Shown piece after piece: positions 21,646 through 21,848 of a DNA stretch of 64,000 nt. The notes beneath the pieces were generated by a model, which searched no databases, had not been told where the DNA came from, and was given only the letters and a program-made list of their open reading frames with translations. Position numbers and translations under genes: made by a program. Location of the stretch: assembly GCA_019454605.1 (NCBI GenBank), contig JACFNZ010000004.1, positions 1-64,000 of the forward strand, given 5' to 3'. The stretch's first letter is position 1. Each line of letters opens with the position of its first letter. This DNA comes from Candidatus Altimarinota bacterium. Its GTDB lineage: Bacteria; Patescibacteriota; Gracilibacteria; BD1-5; UBA6164.

Positions 21646-21848
21646 ACATTATTTAAATAAAAGCATTTTAAGTGGCTATCACCCACAAGCTGGAGGAAGA
21701 AAGTATTTTTTTAAAATATTATTAGACCCTCTCGGAGTTTTTTAAAAAAAACTTTAGTTAACAAAAATAAAATTAAGTACAATCTTTGGTGGTACCTTTC
21801 AATTATTAATTGAACCAAAGCACAAAAATATTTTTTTGTGCTTTTTAT
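21646..21848 (+). ncRNA. T-box riboswitch (ileS), short specifier hairpin, transcriptional type
   Basis: The decisive part is the antiterminator: helix CTTTGG (21784-21789) pairs with CCAAAG (21815-21820), enclosing exactly the seven-base bulge TGGTACC (21790-21796) and a second helix TTCAAT/ATTGAA. This is the T-box architecture in which UGGU binds the ACCA end of uncharged tRNA. The 3' arm overlaps the terminator AAAGCACAAAAA / TTTTTGTGCTTT with T-run (21817-21848), so the two folds exclude each other. Near the 5' end a hairpin GTGG/CCAC (21672-21675 with 21683-21686) presents ATC-A in a seven-base loop, an isoleucine codon followed by a purine, like the ultrashort Stem I of actinobacterial ileS T-boxes. 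Uncharged tRNA-Ile would therefore switch on the 76-aa gene and ileS. Confidence 0.82.

Follow-up and report, generated by a model that had tools for sequence, protein, structure and literature searches.

The gene for isoleucyl-tRNA synthetase (IleRS), ileS, lies downstream of rpoC within the first 64,000 nucleotides of contig JACFNZ010000004.1 of a Candidatus Altimarinota bacterium (this whole stretch is hereafter 'the window'), and a leader with a promoter of its own is placed between the two genes, at positions 21646-21848. The genome, of 1.0 Mb, belongs to the candidate phyla radiation (CPR, or Patescibacteria) and reads UGA as glycine; the ileS frame contains 70 UGA codons and is open under genetic code 25 only. 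We consider that the leader is very probably a T-box riboswitch, specific for tRNA-Ile(GAU) and controlling transcription of a small open reading frame (ORF) together with ileS, a reading built on sequence comparison and predicted folding. That a T-box precedes ileS in a UGA-glycine CPR lineage had been put forward in an initial annotation of this DNA, and codon, bulge, gene and covariation now agree in saying so.

With transcription expected to start near position 21646, the leader can be followed through an 'ultrashort' Stem I, a Stem II, a Stem IIA with its F-box region, and a linker (AAUUAAGUA) that joins the latter to the antiterminator (Table 1). The specifier hairpin, GUGG-CUAUCAC-CCAC (21672-21686), presents AUC and the following A in a 7-nucleotide (nt) loop, and the T-box bulge between the two antiterminator helices is exactly 7 nt long; the antiterminator keeps this bulge when folded alone (-7.8 kcal/mol), and its A1' strand has AAAG (21817-21820) in common with the 5' arm of an intrinsic terminator, which has a stem of 12 pairs (0.0 expected in 50 shuffles) and a predicted stability of -12.5 kcal/mol. 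The terminator is thus the more stable of the two structures, as expected of a switch that is 'off' by default. Of these elements, the bulge, the shared arm and the AUC-A loop of a tiny hairpin had been recognised in the initial annotation, and each is found as it described. Its picture of a minimal specifier hairpin holds for the apical position of the codon; the hairpin is not bare, however, since a lower AGC/GCU helix, a kink-turn-like internal loop (at the position of the GA, or kink-turn, motif) and the S-turn of Stem II are all retained. The S-turn strands are AAGAA and UAGAC (AGA at 21724-21726), with UAGA nearly invariant in relatives.

Table 1. Features of the ileS leader and its neighbourhood in the window, with the two further T-boxes of the same genome (R1, covariance model described in the text; L and G numbers, our locus and genome handles).
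Feature	Position	Strand	Basis or remark
rpoC	17475-21569		Own terminator-like hairpin at 21573-21611
Promoter: TTGACA (21613-21618), 15-nt spacer, TATAAT (21634-21639)	21613-21639	+	Sequence
Ultrashort Stem I: lower helix AGC/GCU (21662-21664 with 21689-21691), upper helix GUGG/CCAC	21662-21691	+	Covariation
Specifier codon AUC (Ile), then A21681, in apical loop CUAUCAC	21678-21680	+	Loop codons of 100 R1 matches
Stem II: lower helix GGAGG/CCUCU (21692-21696 with 21728-21732), A+U-rich upper helix	21692-21732	+	Covariation
Stem IIA and F-box region, CGGAG ... CUUUAGUUA	21733-21760	+	Stem IIA covariation in relatives
Antiterminator: A1 CUUUGG 21784-21789, bulge UGGUACC 21790-21796, A2 hairpin 21797-21814, A1' CCAAAG 21815-21820	21784-21820	+	Sequence, folding, covariation
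Intrinsic terminator: stem-loop 21817-21844 and U-rich tail	21817-21849	+	Terminator scan, folding
ORF of 76 amino acids (aa), first gene of the putative regulated transcript	21866-22096	+	Homologues often in ileS operons of the family
ileS, isoleucyl-tRNA synthetase (code 25), putative regulated gene	22120-25848	+	NCBIfam TIGR00392 equivalog, 943 bits, above cut-off
Second T-box of the genome: AAC (Asn), bulge UGGCACC, 57 nt upstream of aspS	L240 3618-3775, G000:C3:64117-64274	-	
Third T-box of the genome: small GGA hairpin, upstream of glyS	L033 1430-1580, G000:C8 ~69690-69840	+	

A T-box must read a codon for the amino acid of its gene, and the fourth base of its bulge pairs with the discriminator base of the tRNA. 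Across both strands of this genome, GGUGGNACC occurs at exactly three sites, all of them T-boxes, which pair AUC with UGGU before ileS, AAC with UGGC before aspS and GGA with UGGA before glyS. The genome's own tRNA-Ile(GAU), tRNA-Asn(GUU) and tRNA-Gly(UCC) end in ACCA, GCCA and UCCA, respectively, such that the fourth bulge base matches the discriminator in all three cases (U with A73, C with G73 and A with U73). Asparagine, rather than aspartate, would be sensed before aspS because asnS is absent from the genome and gatB is present; AspRS would then have to load tRNA-Asn for later amidation.

Regions upstream of ileS were gathered from the order, and 14 display the same architecture; an alignment of 13 of these leaders forms 93.8% of its possible pairs, with two-sided change in 19 of 33, and is the source of a covariance model, R1. 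None of 500 shuffles reaches any of five measures of this alignment, and sliding the pairing partners by 1-3 columns halves the pairing. In the specifier hairpin all four upper pairs show compensatory changes, as do four of the five in the A2 helix of the antiterminator; the lower helix of Stem II is paired in 100% of cells, with two-sided changes in four of five pairs; in the lower helix of Stem I an AU pair becomes GC; and Stem IIA likewise covaries. Several pairs of A1 hardly vary among the 13 leaders, but five of seven show two-sided changes among 100 members (an alignment that is itself fitted to the R1 model). The initial annotation was to fall if neither the antiterminator nor the specifier hairpin covaried, and covariation is found in both. 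R1 matches 67 of the 77 genomes of the order, usually at two loci per genome, and 80 of the 287 genomes in a phylum-wide sample; ten non-CPR genomes yield weak matches only, of which just two, both in clostridial genomes, fall below E=0.001.

Over 100 R1 matches the loop codon (AUC in 58, AAC in 41, GAC in one) tracks the downstream gene, and the bulge changes with it: UGGU accompanies AUC in 55 of 58 (two have UGGG and one is unresolved), UGGC accompanies AAC in 40 of 41, and the single GAC also has UGGC. Of the 41 leaders with AAC, 39 precede aspS and two lie at contig ends; the aspS T-box is kept in most genomes of the order. Those with AUC precede an ileS of the same orientation: for 29 the gene falls within the retrieved sequence, and for about 22 more it is found 1.8-7.3 kb further along the contig; the rest are at or near contig ends, or have ileS on another contig. 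We take this concerted change of codon, bulge and gene, which is independent of structure, to be the strongest support for a T-box.

Among these same leaders we also observed a number of natural variants. One genome (L247) pairs AAC with UGGU, and in another (L284, genome G323; loop UCGCGACACG) the specifier of the aspS T-box has changed from Asn (AAC) to Asp (GAC) with its bulge unchanged, both tRNAs ending in GCCA in the genome of the window. In about 16 of the 58 ileS T-boxes of the family, UGGUAA replaces UGGUAC (mostly as UGGUAAC; for example L189, L192, L201, L208 and L302), a change that strikes the otherwise invariant ACC part of the bulge and is seen with the AUC codon only. Elsewhere in the phylum (L216, L217, L220, L221 and L239), R1-like T-boxes carry GUC in the loop (GAUUAAUGUCACC), and the genes that follow, whose products are 25-26% identical to IleRS, are probably valS. 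Three operons with an Ile T-box (L244, L267 and L207) start with an ilvA-like gene of isoleucine biosynthesis; a family search confirmed that of L244 as threonine ammonia-lyase, above cut-off, and placed the next gene in the Rid family, contents that fit the sensing of isoleucine.

Synthesising these findings, we propose that RNA polymerase would start near the position given above and that, in the presence of uncharged tRNA-Ile, the 3' ACCA would pair with the UGGU of the bulge and stabilise the antiterminator, the AAAG arm then being unavailable to the terminator, such that ileS would be transcribed; the 3' end of a charged tRNA could not pair, so that the more stable terminator would form and transcription would stop. 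The binding of tRNA, the sensing of its charging and termination itself are what we infer here. The arrangement recurs in relatives: a terminator-like hairpin with a T-tract begins 3-7 bases inside A1' in 91 of 99 matches, against 140 of 1761 positions drawn at random from these loci (8%); in most of the eight exceptions there is a terminator that the filter excluded for its A+T content or its length. A promoter of the form TTGNNN, 14-18 nt, TANANT-like lies within 60 nt upstream of 79 of 100 R1 matches, versus 129 of 3000 random positions. The transcriptional control proposed in the initial annotation is thus supported. Promoters before R1 T-boxes follow TTGCAN-N15-TATAMT, with a spacer of 15-16 nt versus the usual 17; owing to its 15-nt spacer, that of the window was missed by a consensus promoter scan and came to light in a direct pattern search.

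Several observations weigh against the reading of the leader as a working tRNA-Ile T-box. At 107.8 bits, versus 149.6 for the best, the window copy ranks with the lower-scoring members of R1, and it has AA, not GA, at the kink-turn position. Its F-box and IIA helix are degenerate; the order consensus of this region is CGGAG...CUCCGUCAUC, and relatives keep an F-box-like CCGUCA, the published F-box consensus (PMC7583486). No pairing was identified in the leader for the IIB half of the Stem IIA/B pseudoknot. Folded as a lone strand, the whole leader misses the specifier hairpin and pairs UAUCACC with GGUGGUA instead, and without its terminator the leader is no more stable than shuffles. This preferred pairing joins AUCACC, from the specifier hairpin, to GGUGGU, from the T-box; leaders with AAC are unable to form it, which is why we regard it as a side effect of the constraints on the two sequences. 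Finally, the Rfam T-box model RF00230 (gathering threshold 93 bits) has no match in the window, either at that threshold or at E<=10.

The search with RF00230 was among the checks proposed in the initial annotation, and taken alone it would have wrongly refuted a T-box here. A loose scan of the whole genome with this model likewise gave no match, a cmscan of the glyS locus gave a weak one (31.2 bits), and none of the 77 genomes of the order has a match above threshold; across the phylum 96 of 287 genomes match at E<=0.01, only nine of them above threshold. T-boxes thus appear to be common in CPR, mostly below the usual annotation threshold, and pipelines operating at the Rfam threshold would miss nearly all of them. 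Matches to DapZ, trpB and a miRNA in the Rfam scan of the window lie far below their own thresholds and were set aside.

The degenerate F-box and IIA helix, the AA at the kink-turn position and a score below those of relatives could also mean that the leader is a genuine T-box by descent whose function has been lost in this species, which we regard as improbable given that this copy preserves its codon, bulge, S-turn, antiterminator, terminator and promoter, and that the two other T-boxes of the genome are intact. We hold it very unlikely that the leader acts on translation, with the hairpin at 21817-21844 as a sequestor: the aptamer does share its architecture with the translational, short-Stem I ileS T-boxes of actinobacteria (PMC7583486, PMC1262725), but the hairpin lacks a Shine-Dalgarno sequence and, like an intrinsic terminator, runs into a U-rich tail, a terminator form occurs inside A1' in relatives far more often than at random positions, and in many genomes ileS lies 1.8-7 kb downstream, too distant for its own start to be sequestered, such that we rejected a sequestor in favour of an intrinsic terminator. 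That an ordinary rpoC-ileS attenuator acquired T-box-like strings by chance, for which the very A+T-rich region and the empty Rfam result might speak, has a negligible probability and was rejected, being refuted by conservation across the order, by covariation, by the joint variation of codon, bulge and gene, and by the match of bulge base and discriminator in three leaders of one genome.

Returning to the favoured transcriptional T-box, its closest likeness is to the class II ileS T-boxes of actinobacteria (Nocardia farcinica, Mycobacterium), with which it shares a short, kink-turned Stem I and apical Ile codon, the Stem II S-turn, an antiterminator with a UGGN bulge and, in degenerate form, a Stem IIA with F-box (PMC7583486, PMC10651847). 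Those elements sequester the Shine-Dalgarno sequence and act on translation (PMC1262725), whereas the CPR leader has an intrinsic terminator and comes from a different phylum. With the class I T-boxes of Firmicutes, as in RF00230, it has in common an antiterminator/terminator switch, a 7-nt UGGNACC bulge, aminoacyl-tRNA synthetase targets and codon specificity; class I, however, has a long Stem I with a distal motif that binds the tRNA elbow, in contrast to a Stem I of about 30 nt directly followed by Stem II in the window. A review holds that transcriptional T-boxes generally need such a long, elbow-binding Stem I (PMC7583486), and the combination of an ultrashort Stem I with a transcriptional platform, as predicted here, is one that it treats as atypical. 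Since this combination is conserved across the order, the kinetic argument becomes directly testable.

The third T-box of the genome, upstream of glyS, is reduced further: its antiterminator (UUUGGG-UGGAACC-GUCC..GGAC-CCCAAA) is followed by a terminator, and there is no Stem II. Read by eye, the loop codons of 24 glyS leaders from the family all specify glycine: GGU occurs twice, GGC once and GGA in most. Glycine T-boxes (glyQS) also read a Gly codon and lack Stem II; unlike them, the glyS leader has no long Stem I either and is therefore smaller, possibly the smallest form of T-box.

The initial annotation had anticipated that the class would extend to CPR, which it does, but underestimated the extent, with three T-boxes in this genome and further ones in much of the phylum. 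We think it likely that minimal transcriptional T-boxes are numerous in Patescibacteria and have gone unrecognised, that they sense tRNA by codon hairpin and discriminator only, and that the glyS leaders among them dispense even with Stem II. Were this so, the glyS leaders would rank as the smallest T-boxes in nature, and co-transcriptional sensing of tRNA would not depend on a long Stem I that recognises the elbow. That roughly one in three of the CPR genomes sampled has T-boxes also bears on the age of the class. To our knowledge, almost nothing is known of regulation in host-dependent CPR bacteria, for which sensing of amino-acid supply via tRNA would be a plausible way to track the host. 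A 2008 survey placed T-boxes in few phyla (PMC2494555), and TBDB mentions some with a truncated Stem I that were picked up by the class I model (PMC7778990); we found no report linking T-boxes with CPR, Patescibacteria or their member lineages in a literature search that mostly did not extend to subscription journals, such that an earlier mention is possible, and individual CPR members may be present in Rfam or TBDB.

As for the genes downstream, the 76-aa ORF encodes a small, acidic and conserved protein that matches no Pfam family; in many of the family's genomes this ORF forms part of an ileS operon. The IleRS encoded in the window carries a complete, in-frame histidine phosphatase (phosphoglycerate-mutase-like, PF00300) domain at 24223-24732 (aa 702-871), placed between the catalytic and anticodon-binding domains, and the same insert is present in a relative (L064).
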